Source of the DNA: a virus
Length of the DNA: 20,659 bases
Strand: one strand, 5' to 3'
IMG/VR virus record: IMGVR_UViG_3300013297_000018
Location: 1-20,659 of that record
The notes under the pieces are model-generated. The model was not told the origin of the DNA. It ran no database searches and saw nothing but the letters and a program-made list of their open reading frames with translations. The position numbers were made by a program, and so were the translations under genes. Below are positions 9,064 through 18,826 of the stretch, one piece after another. Each line of letters starts with the position of its first letter. Position 1 is the stretch's first letter.

Positions 9064-9477
9064 CTAGTCGGCGCTTGGAACGGTTAGGTTGTACTGCCCA
9101 TCGAGCGCGAGATGACAGGCGCGCGCGCGAGCATCGGTTTCGGGGTACGACGCGCCTCGGGTAATGAGCTGGAAGGTGTAGATCGGGTACCGCAGCGCGT
9201 CGTGAGTGATCGAGGTCGCGGCGCCGCCTGTGCGGAGAAGGTTGACAAAAGGGCCGTCCCCCGCGGGGAAGGTAAGACCCATCCCGCCGATGAAGAGGGT
9301 GAGCCCGAAGATCCCGAGCCCCGCGTCGGCGAGGATGGAGACCATGTCTTCGAGGAGGAAGCTGGGGTCGCCCGCCGAGCGTACGAGAAAGTTGCAGGAG
9401 AAGAGTTGGCGGGAGGCGGCGTCAGTCCCGATGTCGAAGGGGGGCTGGATGGCTGCGATGGAGAGATAGGTTCCCAT
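9064..9477 (-). CDS. Tail terminator / minor capsid protein (Minor_capsid_3-like)
   Basis: This 137-residue protein lies immediately upstream of the major tail gene, the place of tail terminator proteins that cap the finished tail and join it to the head. From about residue 40 it follows the pattern of the phage minor capsid 3/terminator family: a helix (LLEDMVSILADAGLG), then LTLFIGGMGLTFPAGDGPFVNLL with a central strand and loop. Next come ALRYPIYTFQLITRGASY and a last helix, ETDARARACHLAL, before a short tail. The first 40 residues look like an extension. ATG 9477 is the first start after an in-frame TAG and has only a weak ribosome site. The gp10-like gene that would normally lie next to it is about 5 kb away, separated by the plus-strand block. 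Confidence 0.7.
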   Translation of the reverse strand: MGTYLSIAAIQPPFDIGTDAASRQLFSCNFLVRSAGDPSFLLEDMVSILADAGLGIFGLTLFIGGMGLTFPAGDGPFVNLLRTGGAATSITHDALRYPIYTFQLITRGASYPETDARARACHLALDGQYNLTVPSAD

Positions 9478-9565
9478 TCCCGGAGGCAGCGAGCGAACGC
9501 GCTAGACCTTTGGGAGTAGTGTGCCACGGGGAGAGGGGTACCGCTAGTGGTCGAGGGGGAGGGAG

Positions 9566-9581
9566 CCACAATATACTGTGG
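9566..9581. promoter_or_regulatory. Operator-like inverted repeat
   Basis: CCACA-ATATAC-TGTGG is a 16-bp sequence with perfect 5-bp arms and a near-symmetric AT core, in an otherwise GC-rich intergenic stretch. The core contains TATACT on the plus strand and TATATT on the minus strand, both -10-like, but no good -35 is present at the right distance on either strand. It sits between the divergent tail terminator gene and plus-strand block, where a repressor or activator site would be expected. The rest of 9478-9660 shows nothing I can name. Confidence 0.35.
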
Positions 9582-9667
9582 TTTCGAGGGTGATCGGGGG
9601 CAAGCGCGCACGATGGTTCTCCCTCTGTGCTCTTCCCCTGTCGGGCAATTTCGACGAATCTAGGCTA

Positions 9668-9697
9668 TTGACATCCGTGCGCTGTGTGTAGTACTCT
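9668..9697 (+). promoter_or_regulatory. Sigma70-type promoter of the plus-strand block
   Basis: TTGACA at 9668-9673 is a perfect -35 box. TACTCT at 9692-9697 is a reasonable -10 box, with an 18-nt spacer. Transcription should start near 9704. CTATTG (9665-9670) and CAATAG (9702-9707) form an inverted repeat that brackets the promoter and could be operator half-sites. This is the best promoter match I saw in the window, and it points into the plus-strand genes. Confidence 0.65.
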
Positions 9698-9703
9698 CTA
9701 CCA

Positions 9704-9845
9704 ATAGTCGCTTCGGGGTGTCTCACCACCGGGTCATGAACCGACGATCGGCGCCGACCAACGACCCCGAAGTAACGGGCCTCTAGGCCCAATGAGCCGC
9801 GAGCGAAAGCCGCTCTCTCGCGGAGAAAATTGGAGGCTACCGCGT
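9704..9845 (+). ncRNA. Structured 5' leader of the plus-strand operon
   Basis: Just after the predicted transcription start, CTTCGGGGT (9711-9719) pairs perfectly over 9 bp with ACCCCGAAG (9764-9772). Inside this stem GGTC (9732-9735) pairs with GACC (9756-9759), and CCGA (9741-9744) with TCGG (9748-9751) around a CGA loop. A second hairpin follows at once, GGGCC-TCTA-GGCCC (9777-9790). The leader ends at a GGAGG ribosome site (9832-9836) for ATG 9846. It may stabilise the mRNA, act as an attenuator or bind a ligand. No known riboswitch class is recognised. Confidence 0.5.
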
Positions 9846-10172
9846 ATGGGAATCGGAGACATGCTCGCAGACCCCGGCTATTCCGAAAGTGGCCCTACTT
9901 GTCGGCACGGTCTACTGCGTTGTTTCGCCTGCGAACATGGTTTGGCGCCGGCCAAGCTGCCGAGCAAAGACGAAGTGCGCTCAGCCATCCGTCGTGCCGC
10001 AGCGCAGATGCCGATGCCGATGCCGATGCCGAGTCTGGAGGATCAACTTCGCGAGGAACACGTCGCCGAAATCGTGAAGGAGATAGCCAGTCTCTTCCCG
10101 TCTTTCGGCATCGGCTCGCAGGTGCCCCGGAGTCAAGTATTCGTACGTGGGCTCGTCCCTGAAAAACAGTGA
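9846..10172 (+). CDS. Small Cys/His protein of unknown function, first gene of plus-strand operon
   Basis: I do not recognise this gene. I prefer ATG 9846 (108 residues) because GGAGG lies 9 nt upstream. An in-frame ATG at 9792 would add 18 residues but has no ribosome site and sits against a hairpin. Residues about 16-31 read CRHGLLRCFACEHG, with three Cys and two His in a compact arrangement that could hold one zinc ion. Further on is a (Met-Pro)x4 run from a hexanucleotide repeat, then an acidic helix (LEDQLREEHVAEIVKEI) and a short C-terminus. A 76-nt stretch separates its stop from the start of the 711-residue protein, so the two are likely co-transcribed. A zinc-binding role is inference from spacing only. 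Confidence 0.6.
   Translation: MGIGDMLADPGYSESGPTCRHGLLRCFACEHGLAPAKLPSKDEVRSAIRRAAAQMPMPMPMPSLEDQLREEHVAEIVKEIASLFPSFGIGSQVPRSQVFVRGLVPEKQ
10007..10030 (+). repeat. Hexanucleotide repeat GATGCC x4
   Basis: Four perfect copies of gatgcc in tandem encode alternating Met and Pro in the 108-residue protein. The unit is a multiple of three, so changes in copy number stay in frame. Confidence 0.9.
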
Positions 10173-10248
10173 GGCCATAAGCCTTGCGCAGTACCAACTC
10201 TCCGGGACTTTCAAACCCCGGCCGACCACGAGAAAGGATCGATCGACC

Positions 10249-12384
10249 ATGCCCCACGACTTCAGTACCTTCAAGACCGCCGTCGCGCGCCAATTCGAGC
10301 GAATGCAGCACGGGCCGAATGCCCAACTATTCCGCGTCGACATCGCCCCCGACGATCTCTGGGCCGCGTACCTCGCGGCGTTCCCGCCGGGGACCAACCT
10401 CGTCTACCGCGAGCGGACCGAGTACGACTGTTCGTGCTGTAGACAGTTCGTGCGGACAATCGGGAACGTCGTCGGGGTCGTGGACGGAGCACTCGTCAGT
10501 CTCTGGGACGCGTGGATACCCGAGGAGCCGGCGTACCAGGCGGTGGCGGATGCGCTCGCGGCGAAGGTGCTGGCTGCGTCGATTACTGGCCCGTTCCTCC
10601 ACTACGAGCCGAGCGTCGGGACCGACAAGAACTTCGAGGAACTCACCGGGCTCGACGGCGGGATCACGGGGACCAAGACGTGGAGCCATTTCCATGTGAA
10701 TCTCGACAAGCAGCGATTCGTCCGCGCGAAGGACACCATCCCGACCGCGATTGGCGAGCGACGATCCGCGCATGACGTGTTCCTCCGCTCGCTGACGGAG
10801 ATCGACGACGACGCAATCGAGACCGTACTGGACTTGATCGGCCAGGGCTCTCTCTACCGCGGTGAGGAGCATCGGGCCACGGTCCAAGCGTTCCGCGTTG
10901 CGAAGCGGCAGTTCACCATTCTCGCAGCCGATCCGCGAGCGCAGGATCTGTATGCATGGACCGCAGACGCATCCGGGGCGGTCGCGCGGATTCGTAACAC
11001 CGTCATCGGCACGCTCCTGGTCGATCTGTCCGAGGGGAAGGATCTGGACGCTTCGGTCCGAGCGTTCGAAGCCAAGGTCGCACCGACCAACTACAAGCGC
11101 CCGAGCGCGCTCGTCACGAAGGCCATGATCGAGAAGGCCAAGGAGAGGATCGAGGAGCTGGGATTGACCTCCGCGCTTGATCGACGGTATGCGAGGATTA
11201 CCGATATCTCGATCAAGGATCTGCTGTTCGCCGACCGTAGCACCCGCAAGGCGATCACAGGCGGCGGCGTGTTCGATGATCTCCTCGAAGCGGCGCCGAC
11301 CCCGATCAAGAATCTCGACAAGATCGAGACGGTTCCGATTGATCGGTTCATCGCCGAGATCATCCCGCGCGCTGCGAGCCTGGAGATCCTCTTCGAGAAC
11401 CGGTTGGTCCCGAACCTCGTCACGCTGATCGCACCGGTTGACCCTACCGCCCGTCAGCTCTTCAAGTGGCGAAACGGCTTCTCTTGGTCCTACAAGGGAG
11501 AGATCGCGGACAGCGATATGCGGCAGGCGGTCGTCGCGCGCGGCGGCAGCGTGAGCGGTGTGTTCCGGTTCACCCACTCCTGGAACTATCGCGAGCGGAA
11601 TGCCTCGCTGATGGATCTGCACGTCTTCATGCCGGGGAGCAGAGCGAAGGCGGAGAACGGCATCCACGATACCTACGGCAACGCAGAGCGTGTCGGATGG
11701 AACAATCGACGTCATCTCCAGTCTGGTGGCGTCCAAGATGTGGACTACGTCAACGCCGCACCCGAGGGCTACGTGCCGGTCGAGAACATCACGTTTCCGG
11801 ATCTGCGCCGGATGCCGGATGGTGTGTACATCTGCAAGATCCACAACTGGCATCTGAGGCCCCCGACGCAGGGCGGCTTCAAGGCGGAGATCGAGTTCGG
11901 AGGGACCGTCTACGAGTATGAGTACACCAAGCCACTGAGGAACAAGGAATGGGTTACTGTCGCCGAGGTGACGCTGAGGAATGGAGTGTTCGATATCAAG
12001 CATCATCTGCCGGTCGGATCGGCGCCGAGAGAAGCTTGGGGACTGTCGACGCAGACGTTTCGCCGGGTAAACGCGGTTATGCTGTCGCCGAACCATTGGG
12101 ACGGGGAAGGCCCGGGAGGGAATGGAGTCGGCAACCGCCACTATCTCTTCATGCTCGAAGGTGCAAAGAATGAGGACGGCGCGCGAGGGTTCTACAACGA
12201 GTTCCTCGCCGAGGAGCTGACCCCGCACCGCAAGGTGTTTGAGGTGGTCGCGGGGAAGATGAAACCCACGGAGAACCCGAGCGGGGAGCAGTTGAGCGGG
12301 CTGGGGTTTTCGAGTACGGCGAGGAACACTCTGGTGTGCAGGGTGAAGGGGAGTTTCACGAGAACTGTTAGGGTGGTGTTCTAA
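10249..12384 (+). CDS. Large conserved phage protein of unknown function, DUF2135-like region
   Basis: The open frame extends upstream to 10147, but ATG 10249 (711 residues) has AAGGA 10 nt before it and starts the conserved part (MPHDFSTFKTAVARQFERM). I recognise the pattern from many tailed phages, without a known function. Conserved features are a CSCC motif at residues 61-64 in YDCSCCRQFVRTIGNVV, a central helical region (VARIRNTVIGTLLVDLSEG, NYKRPSALVTKAMIEKAKE) and an IAPVDPTARQLFKWRNGFSW junction near 400. After this, residues about 410-590 hold a beta-rich region (MDLHVFMPGS, YVPVENITFPD, GVYICKIHNW) resembling the YfaP/DUF2135 fold. The C-terminus (VMLSPNHWD, GNRHYLFMLEG, LSGLGFSSTARNTLVCRVKG) is also family-typical. 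The stop TAA overlaps the next ATG by one base (TAATG), so the two genes are coupled. There is no signal peptide or membrane segment. Confidence 0.85.
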   Translation: MPHDFSTFKTAVARQFERMQHGPNAQLFRVDIAPDDLWAAYLAAFPPGTNLVYRERTEYDCSCCRQFVRTIGNVVGVVDGALVSLWDAWIPEEPAYQAVADALAAKVLAASITGPFLHYEPSVGTDKNFEELTGLDGGITGTKTWSHFHVNLDKQRFVRAKDTIPTAIGERRSAHDVFLRSLTEIDDDAIETVLDLIGQGSLYRGEEHRATVQAFRVAKRQFTILAADPRAQDLYAWTADASGAVARIRNTVIGTLLVDLSEGKDLDASVRAFEAKVAPTNYKRPSALVTKAMIEKAKERIEELGLTSALDRRYARITDISIKDLLFADRSTRKAITGGGVFDDLLEAAPTPIKNLDKIETVPIDRFIAEIIPRAASLEILFENRLVPNLVTLIAPVDPTARQLFKWRNGFSWSYKGEIADSDMRQAVVARGGSVSGVFRFTHSWNYRERNASLMDLHVFMPGSRAKAENGIHDTYGNAERVGWNNRRHLQSGGVQDVDYVNAAPEGYVPVENITFPDLRRMPDGVYICKIHNWHLRPPTQGGFKAEIEFGGTVYEYEYTKPLRNKEWVTVAEVTLRNGVFDIKHHLPVGSAPREAWGLSTQTFRRVNAVMLSPNHWDGEGPGGNGVGNRHYLFMLEGAKNEDGARGFYNEFLAEELTPHRKVFEVVAGKMKPTENPSGEQLSGLGFSSTARNTLVCRVKGSFTRTVRVVF

Positions 12385-12770
12385 TGCGAGCCTTCCTCTG
12401 CCAAGAAGTAGACCTTGGCGACTACACGGACGACGTTATCGAGGAGATCACAGCCGATACTTTACCCGAGCTGCTTGAAGCGGCTGCGTTTTACACGAGC
12501 GAGAACACTGTCGGCAACCCGCCTCGTCTCTATCTGGTCTCCGAGGATCTGTCAAAGCAGTTCCAAGAAGTATTCAGTAGAAAGCTCGCACGGGATCGAG
12601 AAGAAAAGGCAGCGAAAGAATCAAAACTGAAAAGAGACGCCGTGAAGGCTAGAATCGATGAGCTGGAAAAGAGGCTCACAGAGATCGCGAGCGGGGAACA
12701 AGAACGATGGCTGCGCGCCGAGCTAGCCAAGGCGCAAGCAATCGCAACCCAAATCGGACCCGGCGAGTAA
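12384..12770 (+). CDS. Coiled-coil protein of unknown function, coupled to the 711-residue gene
   Basis: This protein has 128 residues. The ATG shares its first base with the last base of the preceding stop (TAATG), which indicates translational coupling. Residues 1-50 form a small acidic alpha/beta segment (DLGDYTDDVIEEITADTLPELLEAA, then PRLYLVSEDL). Residues about 58-125 are a highly charged helix with heptad spacing (LKRDAVKARIDELEKRLTEI), a likely coiled coil and dimerisation element. I do not recognise a named family. Its tight coupling suggests that it works with the 711-residue protein in similar amounts. Confidence 0.7.
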   Translation: MRAFLCQEVDLGDYTDDVIEEITADTLPELLEAAAFYTSENTVGNPPRLYLVSEDLSKQFQEVFSRKLARDREEKAAKESKLKRDAVKARIDELEKRLTEIASGEQERWLRAELAKAQAIATQIGPGE

Positions 12771-12812
12771 GTGAGTCAAACGAATCTATCAACCAAATAG
12801 GGGAGACACGTC

Positions 12813-13235
12813 ATGGAAGCATCCGTATCGTCAATGTTCGAGCAGGCTTCCCGATTCAAGCTCCGCTTCGACACGACCCGCGGCTCCCTCTCGACCGAGG
12901 ATCTCTGGGACCTCCCGTTGACCTCGACGACGGGAACGCGGGTGAATCTCGACGCAATCGCGGTCGATCTCAGCAAGCAGATGCGAGATACCGCTGAGGT
13001 CGTCTCCTTCGTGACACCGGCCGCGACCGATGCCGCGAAGACCGCGCTGCAACTGAAGTTCGATCTCGTGAAGTACGTGATCGGCGTGAAGATCGCGGAG
13101 CGCGACAAGAAGCAGGCCGCCGCGGATCGTCGCGAGAAAAAGCAGCGGATCTTAGAGCTGATCGCGAAGAAGGAGGACGAGACGCTCGGCACGAAGAGCG
13201 TCGAGGAGCTTCGCGCGCTGGCAGAGTCGCTCTAG
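12813..13235 (+). CDS. Conserved small phage protein of unknown function
   Basis: This 140-residue protein has GGGGAG 8 nt before ATG 12813. The sequence matches a pattern I recall from many tailed phages: an N-terminal MFEQASRFKLRF and GSLSTEDLWDLPLTS, a middle NLDAIAVDLSKQ, then LQLKFDLVKYVIGVKIAERD. A lysine- and glutamate-rich helix follows, ending RILELIAKKEDETLGTKS and VEELRALAESL. The second half is almost all helix. Family members are annotated as hypothetical and, as far as I recall, often lie near homologues of the 711-residue protein. A scaffold or regulatory partner role is only a guess. The stop is followed immediately by a structured intergenic region and a tRNA. Confidence 0.75.
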   Translation: MEASVSSMFEQASRFKLRFDTTRGSLSTEDLWDLPLTSTTGTRVNLDAIAVDLSKQMRDTAEVVSFVTPAATDAAKTALQLKFDLVKYVIGVKIAERDKKQAAADRREKKQRILELIAKKEDETLGTKSVEELRALAESL

Positions 13236-13412
13236 GTGCGGATGTAGAATACACGCCGAGAGGAGAGCACCGGGACGAGTCTGGAGTTCCCGCTCGGCGC
13301 TCAAAACGAAAGACCGAGTAGTCCACCGCGCGCTCCAGTCAAACGGCGGGGTGACCTCGGCAGAGAGGGCAGTGAGCCTTCGCACCGGGTGGAAGCCCCG
13401 GATTCTTCTCTC
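13236..13412 (+). ncRNA. Candidate structured RNA upstream of tRNA-Ile
   Basis: No gene is seen in this 177-nt gap, but several helices can be drawn. GTGCGGA (13236-13242) pairs with TTCGCAC (13379-13385), including one G-U, as a closing stem. CGCCGAG (13254-13260) pairs with CTCGGCG (13293-13299), and CGGGA (13271-13275) with TCCCG (13288-13292), stacked on one side. CCGAG (13314-13318) pairs with CTCGG (13356-13360), enclosing CCGC/GCGG (13326-13329 with 13346-13349). CCGGG/CCCGG (13385-13389 with 13397-13401) sits next to the tRNA. GC-rich sequence makes chance pairing common, so the support is moderate. It could be a processed leader, a terminator-like element or a separate small RNA. Confidence 0.4.
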
Positions 13413-13487
13413 GCGGTCGTAGCTCAGCCCGGATAGAGCGCTCGGCTGATAACCGAGAGGGCCGAAGTTCAAATCTTCGCGACCACA
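13413..13487 (+). tRNA. tRNA-Ile(GAU)
   Basis: A full cloverleaf can be drawn. The acceptor is GCGGTCG/CGACCAC with one C-A mismatch at the second pair. The D arm is GCTC/GAGC. The anticodon stem is CTCGG/CCGAG with loop CTGATAA (anticodon GAT at 13448-13450). The variable loop has 5 nt, and the T arm is CGAAG-TTCAAAT-CTTCG. The discriminator is A, and CCA is not encoded (ACCC follows), so the host CCA-adding enzyme would be needed. It reads ATC and ATT codons. ATC is by far the commonest Ile codon in the genes around it. Confidence 0.9.
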
Positions 13488-13532
13488 CCCCGTCCCCTTA
13501 CTTGCAGCCCCTAAAGAGAAAGAGAGATTCCC

Positions 13533-14144
13533 ATGACCGATAGCAAGCCATTCTCGGAATCCGATCTGCTCAACTACCTCGACCAACTCCCGATCCCGCC
13601 GGGGAAGGGCTGGCTCCTGCGTCCCTCGACAACCGGGCGCGGTTGGCGGCTGCTTACCACGTCGCTAGAGACCTCGCACCAGACCGCGAGAGAAGCGATC
13701 ATCGCGGCGATGACAGGCGAGCACGACGAGGCGCTGTCGAAACTGTTCCCGGGTGCCGAGCTGCCTGGACACGGGAGAGTGGCCGTGGACGACCATGCCA
13801 TTACCGCCAACGAGATCCGACATCTCGCGAGCCGCGGTCTGGGTTCCGAGTCCAACCGAGCCGCGATCGTAGACGCGCTCCGAGAGATCAGAGAGATGCC
13901 AAATAATCCGGGTCTAGAGACGACCACTCCCACACTCGGTAGAAAGCTCCATATCCGCGCTCTGCTCGCGGCTTATCCGATGTCCACGGCGGAGGAACTG
14001 TGGGAACTCCTCCCCCAAATCAGCCGAGATTACAACGGAACACCCAACGCCTACACCCTTGAGTCGGTGCGGGAAGATCTCGATTGGCTGTGCGCGCGGG
14101 GAGATGCGGCAGTAGACGACAGCGGGAGATACTGGACTCTATGA
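13533..14144 (+). CDS. Hypothetical protein with possible C-terminal winged-helix
   Basis: This 203-residue protein starts 46 nt after the tRNA. Only a weak purine-rich site (AAAGAGAGA) precedes ATG 13533. Residues 5-60 (ESDLLNYLDQLPIPPGKGW, LLRPSTTGRGWRLLTTS, REAIIAAM) look like a compact alpha/beta domain. Residues about 130-203 hold LHIRALLAAYPMSTAEELWELLPQ and SVREDLDWLCARGDAAVDD, then RYWTL. This helix-turn-helix plus short beta wing pattern resembles winged-helix DNA-binding domains. No family is recognised. A regulatory role is plausible but not shown. The TGA stop overlaps the next gene's ATG (ATGA). Confidence 0.6.
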   Translation: MTDSKPFSESDLLNYLDQLPIPPGKGWLLRPSTTGRGWRLLTTSLETSHQTAREAIIAAMTGEHDEALSKLFPGAELPGHGRVAVDDHAITANEIRHLASRGLGSESNRAAIVDALREIREMPNNPGLETTTPTLGRKLHIRALLAAYPMSTAEELWELLPQISRDYNGTPNAYTLESVREDLDWLCARGDAAVDDSGRYWTL

Positions 14145-14506
14145 GAATCGTTAACCGCGAGACGTTCCTATCGTTGCCGCGCGGCACTGTCTTCGCAAAG
14201 TGGGAGCCATGCTGCTTCGAGGATCTCTGCATCCTGACCAGCGTCGTCGAAGTGGCCAACGTACCTATCGACTTCCGGTACACATCGCTCGTAGACTCGC
14301 TAGGCGACCCCGAGGGCTCAAAAGAGCTGCCTCTGCTCAACCCGATTGATGTGCTTCTCGCGCTCGACGCCGGAGCGGAAGTACCGACCGACTTTGCCGT
14401 CGAGATCCGAGACGGGGTGTTCGATCAAGAGCAGAGATTTGCGGTGTGGAGTGCGGATGACGTACAGCGATTGATCGCTAGGTTATTGCTGGCGCTGCGA
14501 GGGTAG
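14141..14506 (+). CDS. Hypothetical protein, last gene of plus-strand block
   Basis: This 121-residue protein starts at ATG 14141, which overlaps the previous stop as ATGA. A longer frame from 14084 exists but would run deep into the preceding gene. The sequence opens MRIVNRETFLSLPRGTVFAKWEPCCFEDLCIL, with three Cys close together, and continues as an alpha/beta protein (DFRYTSLVDSLG, LPLLNPIDVLLALDAG, EIRDGVFDQEQRFAVWS, then a helix ending LLLALRG). I recognise no family. It faces the gp10-like gene with only 7 nt between the two stops, so there is no room for a separate terminator. The two transcripts may run into each other. Confidence 0.6.
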   Translation: MRIVNRETFLSLPRGTVFAKWEPCCFEDLCILTSVVEVANVPIDFRYTSLVDSLGDPEGSKELPLLNPIDVLLALDAGAEVPTDFAVEIRDGVFDQEQRFAVWSADDVQRLIARLLLALRG

Positions 14507-14513
14507 TAAGAGT

Positions 14514-14993
14514 CTATTTCGGTAAGATCTTCGCCGCGATCCGCTCGGCCATCCCGTTACTCGCGGCTAGCAGCGGCCTCTCTAGGTACTTCGGGCCCCC
14601 TTGCGAGAAGTGCGGCGGGGTTGCCTTCCAGCTCGGCGGGTCGTAAGCGCTCGGCGTCTCGTGGACCGCGGCAGCGTACGCCGCAGACCGTCCCTCTCCG
14701 AACGACACGGTCACCGAGAGAACCGAGCCGTTCGTCTCAAGCAGGGAAACCGAGCCCGAGTCGCGAAGCTCGCCAGAGTCGACCGGCACTGCGGCCTTTG
14801 CCGCGTCGAGGATTTCCCTCCCCTCGGCGAGGAGAGAGTTACCGAGTTGCCATTCGAATATTCCTGCCAGAGAGCCGAGCTTAGCGCGAACGGCATCTAG
14901 GCCCTCGATCGATGCGCCGAAATTTCCCAAGCTAGGCGGCGCCTTCGTCTTCGCTTTCGCCTGCTGTCGGGGCCGTGGCATCGTCGCTGGCAT
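14514..14993 (-). CDS. HK97 gp10-like tail completion / head-tail joining protein
   Basis: The conserved part (about 140 residues) matches the pattern of the gp10 family of neck or tail completion proteins: IEGLDAVRAKLGSL, a long helix LAEGREILDAAKAAVPVDSGELRDS, and YAAAVHETPSAYDPPSWKA with the family-typical Y-A-x-x-V-H-E. It closes with GPKYLERPLLAASNGMAERIA. The start is uncertain. In-frame ATGs lie at 15014, 14993 and 14981, all inside the upstream glycosyltransferase gene and none with a strong ribosome site. I give 14993 (159 residues, 62-nt overlap). It would act at the head-tail interface together with the tail terminator. It is separated from that gene by the plus-strand block. Confidence 0.75.
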   Translation of the reverse strand: MPATMPRPRQQAKAKTKAPPSLGNFGASIEGLDAVRAKLGSLAGIFEWQLGNSLLAEGREILDAAKAAVPVDSGELRDSGSVSLLETNGSVLSVTVSFGEGRSAAYAAAVHETPSAYDPPSWKATPPHFSQGGPKYLERPLLAASNGMAERIAAKILPK

Positions 14994-16236
14994 GCGCGCT
15001 TTCGAGGAGTCCATCGACGATCTCTTCGAGCATTGAGGTGAACATCTCCCCGGTCTGCGACCACGGCAGTTCCTCGGCGCGGCGTCGGCCGAGAGACCCG
15101 ATCTCCGCCCGAAGCACACGGTCCGCGTAGAGCGCCTCTAGCGCCTCGATCGTGGCGGCCTTATCCGCTACCCCGCCGATCGTATACTTCCCTTCACGTG
15201 ATCCATTCGGCGCCGACAGTGCGGTACTCGTACACGGGATCTGGATCGCCGCGCCGTTCAACCAACCCCGCTCGCCCAGCGCTGCCCACGACGGGACAAT
15301 GCACGGCACCCCGCAGGCCATAGCCTCCAGTACTGGCAGACACCAGCCCTCCGACTGCGAGAGGGTCAGGAAGGCGTCGAAGGCGTTGTAGAAGTAAGGG
15401 AGACTCGTCTCGGGCTGACCTTGGCCGAGATCCGGGCTGGCGATGAACACTCGCTCCGCGATCCCGTAGTACCGTGCGAGGGATGAGATGTCGACGCCGT
15501 CCGAGTCGCCGGTAGGTCCGACGTAGAGATAGAGATAGGCATTCGGCTGGTTGTCGGGGCTATCGGGCGTTCCGTGCAGCCATTCCGCGAAGTACGAGAT
15601 GAGTAGATCAAGGCGCTTGCGGTACTGGTTCCGGCCGACGTACCCCACGATGAAGGCGTCGTCGGGGATGCCTGGCTTGCAGATCGAAGCGCGGCACGCG
15701 AGACGGGTTTCCGGGTCCTTCGGCGCGTACAGCGTGGAGTCGACGCCGAGCGGGATCACCGTAACCGGGGCCAGATAGCCCCCTCGCGCGAGTTCGTCGG
15801 CCGCGAAGTCCGTCCATACCGCGACGTGAGTGATCGCGGGGTCGGCGAGTGCGCTCGCATGGATGTTCTTGGCGTCAACCGCGAGGTAGGCGATCACCGG
15901 GAACGGGAGCGGGGCGTCCGCGGGGGTATCGAACTCAGCGCGGAGCGCGGAGAGGTAATGCGGGATGTTCCACGGGTCGTTCAGTAGGACAACCGCATCG
16001 GGTTGCAGACGACGGGCGAGACGCGGAAGCCGGGAGATTCCGAAACCGTCTCGGCCGCCGTCGAAAGGGTGAACGCAGTGATAGAGCGGGTAGGGGTAGG
16101 GATGGGTTTCGTCGTGCCAGTTGATCGCGAGTACGTGGATTTCATGGCCTGCCGCGTGGAGCGCATCACAGACCGCATGAGTTACGCGGGAAAATCCAGA
16201 GGGCACAGCCCCGTCTCCACACCAGAGGATTTTCAA
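14932..16236 (-). CDS. GT-B fold glycosyltransferase (GT4-like)
   Basis: This 434-residue protein starts at TTG 16236, which overlaps the previous stop as TTGA and has GAGGG 6 nt upstream. The fold is GT-B. The N-terminal Rossmann domain has a glycine-containing loop (PSGFSRVTH, residues 12-20). The linker reads VTVIPLGVDSTLY (158-170), and the second domain opens with GYVGRNQYRKRLD (198-210). The nucleotide-sugar site is SEGWCLPVLEAMACGVPC (295-312), the E-x7-E type motif of retaining GT4 enzymes. The acidic C-terminus (ESEDEGAA) is probably disordered. It would transfer a sugar from an NDP-sugar to an acceptor that cannot be read from sequence. Its place in the head-tail operon suggests modification of virion proteins, but host surface or DNA glycosylation are alternatives. 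Confidence 0.88.
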   Translation of the reverse strand: MKILWCGDGAVPSGFSRVTHAVCDALHAAGHEIHVLAINWHDETHPYPYPLYHCVHPFDGGRDGFGISRLPRLARRLQPDAVVLLNDPWNIPHYLSALRAEFDTPADAPLPFPVIAYLAVDAKNIHASALADPAITHVAVWTDFAADELARGGYLAPVTVIPLGVDSTLYAPKDPETRLACRASICKPGIPDDAFIVGYVGRNQYRKRLDLLISYFAEWLHGTPDSPDNQPNAYLYLYVGPTGDSDGVDISSLARYYGIAERVFIASPDLGQGQPETSLPYFYNAFDAFLTLSQSEGWCLPVLEAMACGVPCIVPSWAALGERGWLNGAAIQIPCTSTALSAPNGSREGKYTIGGVADKAATIEALEALYADRVLRAEIGSLGRRRAEELPWSQTGEMFTSMLEEIVDGLLESAHASDDATAPTAGESEDEGAA

Positions 16237-16699: not shown

Positions 16700-16987
16700 T
16701 TAGATCGTCGCCTCGGGGTCGAAAACCGAGCGCATGCGCCGACCGATGCCGTCCTCGACCCAGCCCATCGTATAGACACCGTGCGGGAACATGCGAGTCA
16801 TGTCCTCGGCGGTTGCAGGTTGCATGCGGTCGGACGCACGCGAGATAATGCTCCCGTCGCCATCGCAATACTTGCAACCGCGGGGTCGACCTTCGTGCCC
16901 GAGTGAGTGCCACCCACAACCGGAACAGACGAAACCGTCCGGTGCGGGTGGGGTAGGATCGGCAGGTGGAATCCATTGATAGCTCAT
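16700..16987 (-). CDS. Small zinc-ribbon-like protein
   Basis: This 95-residue protein starts at ATG 16987, overlapping the methyltransferase stop as ATGA. After a Pro-rich N-terminus it has CSGCGWHSLGH (residues 21-31) and CKYC (38-41), a paired Cys/His arrangement typical of a small zinc ribbon. The second half, EDMTRMFPHGVYTMGWVEDG and IGRRMRSVFDPEATI, looks like a short alpha/beta element. No family is recognised. Its position between the methyltransferase and the glycosyltransferase suggests an accessory role in that group. Confidence 0.6.
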   Translation of the reverse strand: MSYQWIPPADPTPPAPDGFVCSGCGWHSLGHEGRPRGCKYCDGDGSIISRASDRMQPATAEDMTRMFPHGVYTMGWVEDGIGRRMRSVFDPEATI

Positions 16988-17859
16988 GAGTGCTCTCCAC
17001 GAATCGCGATCAGTGCGATCGAGGTAGTCCGTCGCCCGCCTGCAAGCTCGATGTTGAGATGGGAAATCGCGCTGGGACTATACGGAGGCTGATCGATATA
17101 CAGATCCTCGGGCTCCGCCCCCTGCGCAGCGTCGATCGGCAGCAGTATGTCCCCTTGAGCCTCTAGCGTCGTGGTGAGCATCGCGATATCCGCATCTCGA
17201 TAGAGCGAGAGATCGGGAGTGTCGAGCGGCAGGGTACCGGGGTCGGGGTCGTACTCGTACTCCGTGGTGTGGACCGCGATCCCTCCAGGCCGTAGCACGT
17301 CCATCTGCCGTGTGAAGAACAGAAGACCCGCATGCGCGCCACCGATATGCTCGAAGGACCCGCACGAGTAGGTGAGATCGAATCGACCGCGCCAGAGGTC
17401 CGAGGGGAGATCTGCCATGTCTATCGCGCGGTACTCGCAGCCGGCGGCGAATTCTTCCTCGCTCACATACCCGAGCCTGCCGAGCTGCGAGTGTCCCGCC
17501 GCGTGCTGGCCGGTTTCTTTCCATCCGGGGATGGTGTCGGCTTCGGGTTTGTCGGTCGCGAGGACTGAGCAGCCATGGCCCACGAACCACGCGGGGAGAG
17601 GCTCGCGACCTACCCCGAACCCGAGGACTCGCGGGCGGATGAGCGTGGAAGAACTGGCCTTCAGTACGCGGAAGACGTGAAGGATCACCGCGAACTCCCA
17701 GAGCTTGCGGTGCGGCGGGGTGAGCGGGAGATGGAGCTGTGCCGAGGCGAGAGAGAGCCAGTCGGCGCGGAAGTCGGAGGCTCGGACGCGGAGAGAGTGC
17801 GAGATGGGGGGGAGACCGAGCGCTTCAGAAGACGGGGAGAGTAATTCGCTACGGATCAT
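16984..17859 (-). CDS. Class I SAM-dependent methyltransferase
   Basis: I choose ATG 17859 (291 residues). It overlaps the preceding stop as ATGA, while the longer open frame to 18057 would run through that gene and into the glycosyltransferase. Motif I is VLGFGVGREPLPAWF (residues 78-92), followed by the acidic end of strand 2 (VLATDK, 99-104). Further motifs are AIDMADLP (145-152), FDLTYSCGSFEHIGG (160-174) and LRPGGIAVHTTE (189-200). These fit a Rossmann-fold small-molecule or glycan methyltransferase. DNA methyltransferase motifs (DPPY, NPPY, PCQ) are absent. The N-terminal 70 residues are helical and may bind substrate. Together with the two glycosyltransferases it probably methylates a sugar or a modified protein; the substrate is unknown. 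Confidence 0.85.
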   Translation of the reverse strand: MIRSELLSPSSEALGLPPISHSLRVRASDFRADWLSLASAQLHLPLTPPHRKLWEFAVILHVFRVLKASSSTLIRPRVLGFGVGREPLPAWFVGHGCSVLATDKPEADTIPGWKETGQHAAGHSQLGRLGYVSEEEFAAGCEYRAIDMADLPSDLWRGRFDLTYSCGSFEHIGGAHAGLLFFTRQMDVLRPGGIAVHTTEYEYDPDPGTLPLDTPDLSLYRDADIAMLTTTLEAQGDILLPIDAAQGAEPEDLYIDQPPYSPSAISHLNIELAGGRRTTSIALIAIRGEHS

Positions 17860-18041
17860 CGGTCTTCGACTTTTCCTCCGACCCACGTAGCGGCACACGA
17901 ACACAGATAGTGATGCTCGACATCCGAGTGCGTTGTGACGATGTATACGCGATGACCGCGACGCTCGTGTGAACGCTTGATATCGACGGCGATAGAGAGA
18001 CCCGATAGAGGCTCGGTTGTCAATGCGATACGTTCGCTCAC
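17856..18041 (-). CDS. Tiny Cys/His protein between glycosyltransferase and methyltransferase
   Basis: This 61-residue gene is seen from its overlaps at both ends: GTG 18041 overlaps the glycosyltransferase stop (GTGA), and its TGA overlaps the methyltransferase ATG (ATGA). The sequence has a strand-helix-strand start (IALTTEPLSGLSIAVDIKRS), a basic segment (HERRGHRVYIV) and a Cys/His cluster, THSDVEHHYLCSCAATWVGG, that could bind zinc. A longer in-frame extension to 18368 is the shadow of the upstream gene. The function is unknown. Confidence 0.6.
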   Translation of the reverse strand: MSERIALTTEPLSGLSIAVDIKRSHERRGHRVYIVTTHSDVEHHYLCSCAATWVGGKVEDR

Positions 18042-18826
18042 GGCACGAGAATAGCACGCGAGCGAGAGCGGCTGGTGTATCGCCAGTCCCGACCGCGCCA
18101 CGAATCGAAGACCGGCGGCGATGGGTCCTCGGGGCGGATCGCGGATCGGACGCCGATATGCTGACACATGCTCGGGCAGCTCGCTAGGATTCGACCATCC
18201 GCATACCGGTTCCGCAGCCAGTCTTGCAGCATGAGATCGTACTGCCCGGGCGCCGAAACCCCGCGCACCATCGGGTTCGACTGCCAGTACTCGCCGAGAG
18301 AGCGTGCGTCCTCCGCGCGGAGTGCGATGGCCTGTGTCCCGTAGAACGCGTGGACCGGATACTCCCAAGCGCTACTGCCCCGCGCGATCTCCGCTTCGAT
18401 CTGCGGGGTGTAGGCCGTGCCGAAGGAGTAGACGCGGTGCGCGGGGCCCGCGTGATCGTCGAGCCAATCGCCGACCGAGTCGAGGAAGTCCGCACACACG
18501 TCGATGTCGTCTTCGAGGTACAGCACCCACGGAGCGCCGGTCAGGGACCCAAGGCTGAGCGCGCGGCCAGCGTTCTCACAGGGTAGGAGCCTCGTCGCGC
18601 TTCCTGTGTACTGCGCACTGAGCGTTCCGAGCGCGGAGAATACGAGCGTACGTGCCTCAGCCGATCCGGAGCCTTCGACGAGAAGAAAGGTAGCTCGGCG
18701 CCGAGATTGCCACAGACCTCCGCGACAGATATTTTCAATCGTTGCTCGAAGATAGGATTCACCGCCGCTAACGAGCGTCCGATCGCAGGTCGGCATGACG
18801 ACAGCGATATCGGCGATGCGGTTCAC
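18038..18826 (-). CDS. GT-A fold glycosyltransferase (family 2-like)
   Basis: This 262-residue protein starts at GTG 18826, overlapping the previous stop as GTGA. The N-terminus is IAVVMPTCDR (residues 7-16), the usual first strand of GT-A enzymes. WVLYLEDDIDVCADFLDS (100-117) carries the acidic DxD-type metal site after a donor-binding region. The C-terminal half, with YSFGTAYTPQIEAEI, YGTQAIALRAEDARSL and GQYDLMLQDWLRNRYADGR, fits the acceptor side, and LMLQDWL is similar to the glycan-processing LgtD/GT25 style. It would add a sugar to a phage or host acceptor. It is the first enzyme of the chain that continues with the methyltransferase and the GT-B glycosyltransferase. Confidence 0.8.
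   Translation of the reverse strand: MNRIADIAVVMPTCDRTLVSGGESYLRATIENICRGGLWQSRRRATFLLVEGSGSAEARTLVFSALGTLSAQYTGSATRLLPCENAGRALSLGSLTGAPWVLYLEDDIDVCADFLDSVGDWLDDHAGPAHRVYSFGTAYTPQIEAEIARGSSAWEYPVHAFYGTQAIALRAEDARSLGEYWQSNPMVRGVSAPGQYDLMLQDWLRNRYADGRILASCPSMCQHIGVRSAIRPEDPSPPVFDSWRGRDWRYTSRSRSRAILVP

Follow-up and report, generated by a model that had tools for sequence, protein, structure and literature searches.

The window, as we call the whole stretch of DNA analysed, is a 20,659-base viral record from a single metagenomic contig. Its structural genes lie on the minus strand. Six plus-strand genes (A to F) and a tRNA-Ile gene stand between the gp10-like gene and the tail terminator-like gene, forming an accessory block at ~9846-14506 that separates the two. 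The opposite orientation of this block, described in a first-pass annotation, was confirmed. The sole near relative of the window in the viral collection is the 48-kb contig L005, which serves as the reference for the features of the junction:

9064-9477, minus strand: tail terminator-like gene, left border of the slot (PF12691, E 6.2e-6; 99% amino acid identity to L005)
9478-9845, plus strand: leader and promoter region, mostly identical to L005
9846-10172, plus strand: gene A, 108 aa, passenger; L005 shares its first residues only
10202-10221, plus strand: hairpin CCGGGACTTTCAAACCCCGG in the leader of gene B, read from the sequence; identical bases precede B in L005
10249-11508, plus strand: core of B, aa 1-420, without known fold, with a DCxCC motif near aa 60-64; 83% identical to L005
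11518-12036, plus strand: interchangeable beta-sandwich of B, long type, aa 424-596; 31% identical to L005
12046-12384, plus strand: C-terminal domain of B, aa 600-711, and stop codon; 83% identical to L005
12384-12770, plus strand: gene C, 128 aa, passenger between B and D; an unrelated 88-aa ORF takes its place in L005
12813-13235, plus strand: gene D, 140 aa, helical partner of B (phrog_2018; model pLDDT 90)
13413-13489, plus strand: tRNA-Ile(GAT), passenger (ARAGORN; Rfam, 64 bits)
13533-14144, plus strand: gene E, 203 aa, passenger; no significant family match, not found in L005
14141-14506, plus strand: gene F, 121 aa, passenger (phrog_11827, E 2.9e-16); truncated remnant in L005
14514-14993, minus strand: gp10-like neck/tail-completion gene, right border of the slot (PF04883, E 1.5e-5; 99% amino acid identity to L005)

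L005 matches most structural proteins of the window at 91-100% identity and also carries a plus-strand block at the gp10/terminator junction. In the distant relative L112 the two border genes are adjacent, 11 bases apart, and the junction is empty, bearing out the earlier statement that they are usual neighbours. Two further distant relatives have other genes in the gap: three same-strand ORFs in L111, one of them with a lysozyme-like start, and one ORF of 527 aa in L113. The junction is therefore a variable accessory slot. In having accessory genes lodged between two conserved late genes, the block resembles a phage moron. Its expression at a different time from the late genes is plausible and compatible with its orientation; an orientation opposite to the neighbours is unusual among loci carrying B and D (6 of 75). 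Elsewhere in the structural module, glycosyltransferase- and methyltransferase-like genes (14932-16236 and 16984-18826) differ between relatives, and the major tail protein of the window had no match in the phage collection.

The first-pass annotation had also given the block its own promoter, a structured leader and a structured intergenic RNA candidate. The signals for a promoter are mixed: a perfect TTGACA lies at 9668-9673 and is conserved in L005, but the -10-like TACTCT at 9692-9697 is weak (3/6 match to the hexamer) and a promoter scan of 9478-9845 called none. The two RNA structures were not supported. The leader folds no better than shuffled sequences (z -1.7), the intergenic segment 13236-13412 does not rise above its shuffles either (z -1.4), and neither matched an Rfam family. 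The tRNA-Ile(GAT) was recovered by ARAGORN and as a tRNA by Rfam; no tRNA was found in L005. The ORF of gene A is also open from an ATG at 9792, the start chosen previously. Because the frame upstream breaks in L005, we place the start most likely at 9846.

Only B and D, among the six genes, were found in other phage loci. Family searches with gene A gave no match, and gene C is absent from the other loci compared. Thus, the variable passengers A, C, the tRNA, E and F are not part of the unit. The claim that the block is a self-contained unit is upheld for B and D but not for the whole ~5 kb, as relatives lack the other genes or have them in altered form. The same division applies to the suggestion of an undescribed system: the block contains one, the B-D pair, but is not itself that unit.

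B (711 aa) is a full-length member of phrog_1735 (E 7.3e-240 over aa 4-711) and D is a full-length member of phrog_2018 (E 2.9e-44 over aa 6-139). PHROGs lists both families without function. Among 50,697 phage records, 496 contain relatives of B, as do more than 500 viral contigs; the gene pair, present in ~1% of the phage genomes searched, still has no assigned function. The carriers include many Vi01-like Ackermannviridae, Mydovirus, Schitoviridae, phiCbK and Cellulophaga phages. Pairing was scored in 108 viral loci, two of which lack D and end just after B. In the 106 testable loci D always lies within 5 kb of B (106/106, median gap 20 nt), usually directly downstream (≤150 nt away in 84/106). 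On bacterial contigs D accompanies B in 74 of 77 loci, and the remaining three end just after B. The pairing, the relation to TerD and DUF2135 and the domain exchange described below appear to be undescribed: we found no description in the literature searched, which covered few subscription journals, and none of the pairing and exchange for the two PHROGs families. A few loci have unusual layouts, with D ~2 kb after B (L054, 9998-14180), ahead of B (L108, 9581-9970) or 4.6 kb from B (L064, 12796-13230). In Salmonella phage Vi01 (L060, 5995-8014), B is annotated as two overlapping ORFs, reflecting a frameshift or a sequencing error.

The structure model of B is confident (pLDDT 91) and contains a core, a beta-sandwich and a C-terminal domain. 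TerD is its best PDB fold match (Foldseek, E 3.9e-4 and 1e-3). The match to 2kxt (E 3.9e-4, probability 1.00, TM 0.54 by target), scored for the whole B model with no aligned residue range in the output, identifies a TerD-like beta-sandwich fold in B. Pfam TerD matched neither B nor 51 relatives. Residues ~433-541 align with E. coli YfaP (DUF2135) with a probability of 90.6-90.7% in hhalign, versus 0.1% for two unrelated E. coli control proteins. The profile match covers the D-L-D-x-H ... L-D-x-D region, and D456, D497 and D499, invariant in B, coincide with the matching acidic positions of YfaP. Some phage copies of B are already annotated as YfaP/COG4676. However, the best Pfam DUF2135 score is 12.7 bits, below the cut-off of 22, and YfaP has neither the B core, nor the C-terminal domain, nor a partner D. 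B likewise differs from TerD and the Ter systems (Ca2+-binding, tellurite and phage inhibition) in that the TerD-like fold is one domain of a larger protein; no other Ter genes were found among the annotated neighbours of B and D. Short relatives of B in Rhizobium, Vibrio, Xanthomonas and Serratia phages match the profile over the core only. In one of them, RHph_X66, a B-like C-terminal segment follows the core and the sandwich is missing, as judged by eye in this single protein. The fold search with D gave no PDB match below E 0.8. The annotation of B as "DNA-directed RNA polymerase" in some Klebsiella and Salmonella phages has no family or structure support.

The DNA alignment between the window and L005 ends at 11517 and restarts at 12036, and the gap is the sandwich. 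Protein identity is accordingly 83% in the core, 31% in the sandwich and 83% in the C-terminus. Other close pairs of loci show the same profile (73/35/80% for L021 and L057, 73/35/79% for L008 and L024). Conversely, the sandwiches of the window and L023 share 73% identity, while the two cores are 38% identical. The sandwiches fall into two types, a long one of about 173 aa and a short one of about 155 aa. On a core tree built without the sandwich, and leaving out the 24 of 110 rows that could not be assigned to a type, the type changed at least 15 times, with 11 changes forced by supported branches. This count uses the stricter typing, by sandwich identity; typing by a single motif gives 26. 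The identity of D correlates with that of the core (r 0.66, Mantel p about 0.0005) but not with that of the sandwich (r 0.11). The sandwich is swapped and D co-varies with the core, so the lasting machine consists of the core, the C-terminus and D, with the sandwich as its replaceable part. Repeated exchange of one sensor-like domain in a body that is kept is the pattern expected of a protein that recognises changing targets, and we take it as a strong sign that targets do change. The same B body with two natural sandwiches offers a direct experimental handle.

The B-D pair is also found in 43 Micromonosporaceae loci. In a comparison of 32 loci, the neighbours of three reference loci were, apart from the pair itself, not widely shared. 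B-D nucleotide identity reaches 97.8% over ~2.9 kb between Phytohabitans, Plantactinospora and Micromonospora, and the flanks are not shared; the unit has sharp ends, which in several genomes fall at a short repeated site. Both genes are under purifying selection in the bacterial copies (dN/dS 0.25-0.36 for B and about 0.05 for D). These data indicate that B and D work, and spread, together as one unit. A pair on a bacterial chromosome also allows gene removal without touching a phage.

An obligate partner that tracks the scaffold, combined with one exchanged domain, looks like a specificity module. We therefore tentatively favour the view that B and D form an intracellular recognition complex used in conflict, with an interchangeable recognition domain. 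The physical complex, the recognition of a ligand and the conflict role are what we infer from this pattern. The accessory cassette occupies the variable slot between two late genes, with B and D as its presumed working part. D would bind the conserved core of B, and the core and C-terminal domain would serve as a scaffold displaying the TerD/DUF2135-type sandwich. This sandwich would be the replaceable recognition domain and probably binds Ca2+, as predicted from the conserved acidic residues; swapping it would re-aim the complex at another ligand or protein and leave the machine unchanged. Type I restriction specificity subunits (HsdS) similarly carry an interchangeable recognition module in a conserved frame; the likeness of B to HsdS is by analogy alone, a replaceable recognition module in a constant frame.

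TerD binds calcium, according to the title of structure 2kxt, and a role against superinfecting phages has been proposed for the Ter genes that phages carry (PMC7824862). The use of B and D by phages may most likely be intracellular, in superinfection exclusion, counter-defence or host takeover. PADLOC gave no match for the block to a known anti-phage defence system. In its broader form, a proposal that we make more tentatively still, the pair would be an undescribed two-protein conflict system of diverse phages, mobile in Micromonosporaceae, with its specificity set by the exchangeable TerD/DUF2135-type domain. As a counterpoint, Vi01-like phages commonly carry B and D, and in Vi01 itself the two genes adjoin replication genes, which could point to a housekeeping role in the phage. 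Recurrent exchange could also reflect regulation by various small ligands instead of conflict.

Alternatively, B might serve a MoxR AAA+/VWA chaperone pair as client or adaptor and act in the assembly or remodelling of phage proteins. In Alteromonas phage AD45-P2 the genes directly upstream of B are MoxR and VWA genes, and Piffle and other phages have such genes in its vicinity. Yet MoxR occurs in only 15 and VWA in 13 of 56 B-positive records, and complete phiCbK and Vi01 have neither. These counts rule out an obligate partnership and make the chaperone reading unlikely: the phage MoxR-VWA systems (PMC7824862) are sometimes beside B and D but optional, present in about a quarter of records. 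For MoxR presence versus sandwich type, Fisher's test gave p 0.054, and we claim no association. A role of the pair in RNA or tRNA maintenance during infection seems less likely still. tRNA genes lie within 1 kb of B and D in 14 of 79 phage loci, versus 7.3 expected (p 0.005), and one short-form B relative adjoins RtcB. However, the accessory regions of large phages are marked by tRNA clusters, and family searches detected no RNA-binding family. The Ro60/TROVE reading of the B core was rejected, as the 50 PDB matches listed for B include no such structure.

It is improbable that B belongs to the virion or is injected and binds a surface ligand through its sandwich. The exchange does resemble the modularity of receptor-binding proteins, and in the window the two genes sit among structural genes. 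But B is there on the strand opposite to them, and in Vi01 it adjoins the clamp loader, RegA and MazG genes. We give equally little credence to a mainly selfish gene pair that brings its carrier no benefit as it spreads: the sharp-ended, mobile ~2.9 kb unit of the Micromonosporaceae is what such an element would look like, but B and D are under purifying selection, are widespread in Vi01-like phages and contain no recombinase signature. A chimeric assembly, suggested by the single metagenomic contig and its mosaic identity to L005, is very improbable, as all ORFs of the window are intact, the junction flanks are 91-100% identical to L005 and the same sandwich exchange recurs in many independent loci.

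Repeats were observed around several bacterial copies. On the Phytohabitans flavus chromosome (L177, 997.76-1004.40 kb), four same-strand copies of CCGCTCATCGGC flank and precede B and D, 0.6-3.9 kb apart and mostly followed by AGATCCG; the repeat is also present in L163, L159 and L164. The pattern has five perfect matches in 9.6 Mb. These repeats resemble a cassette-array or recombination site but not an attC core; no tyrosine recombinase was found within about 28 kb of the L177 copies. In Salinispora (L174, 12566-12936), the right flank of the pair consists of repeats of ~140 and ~220 bp that occur in many copies in related genomes.
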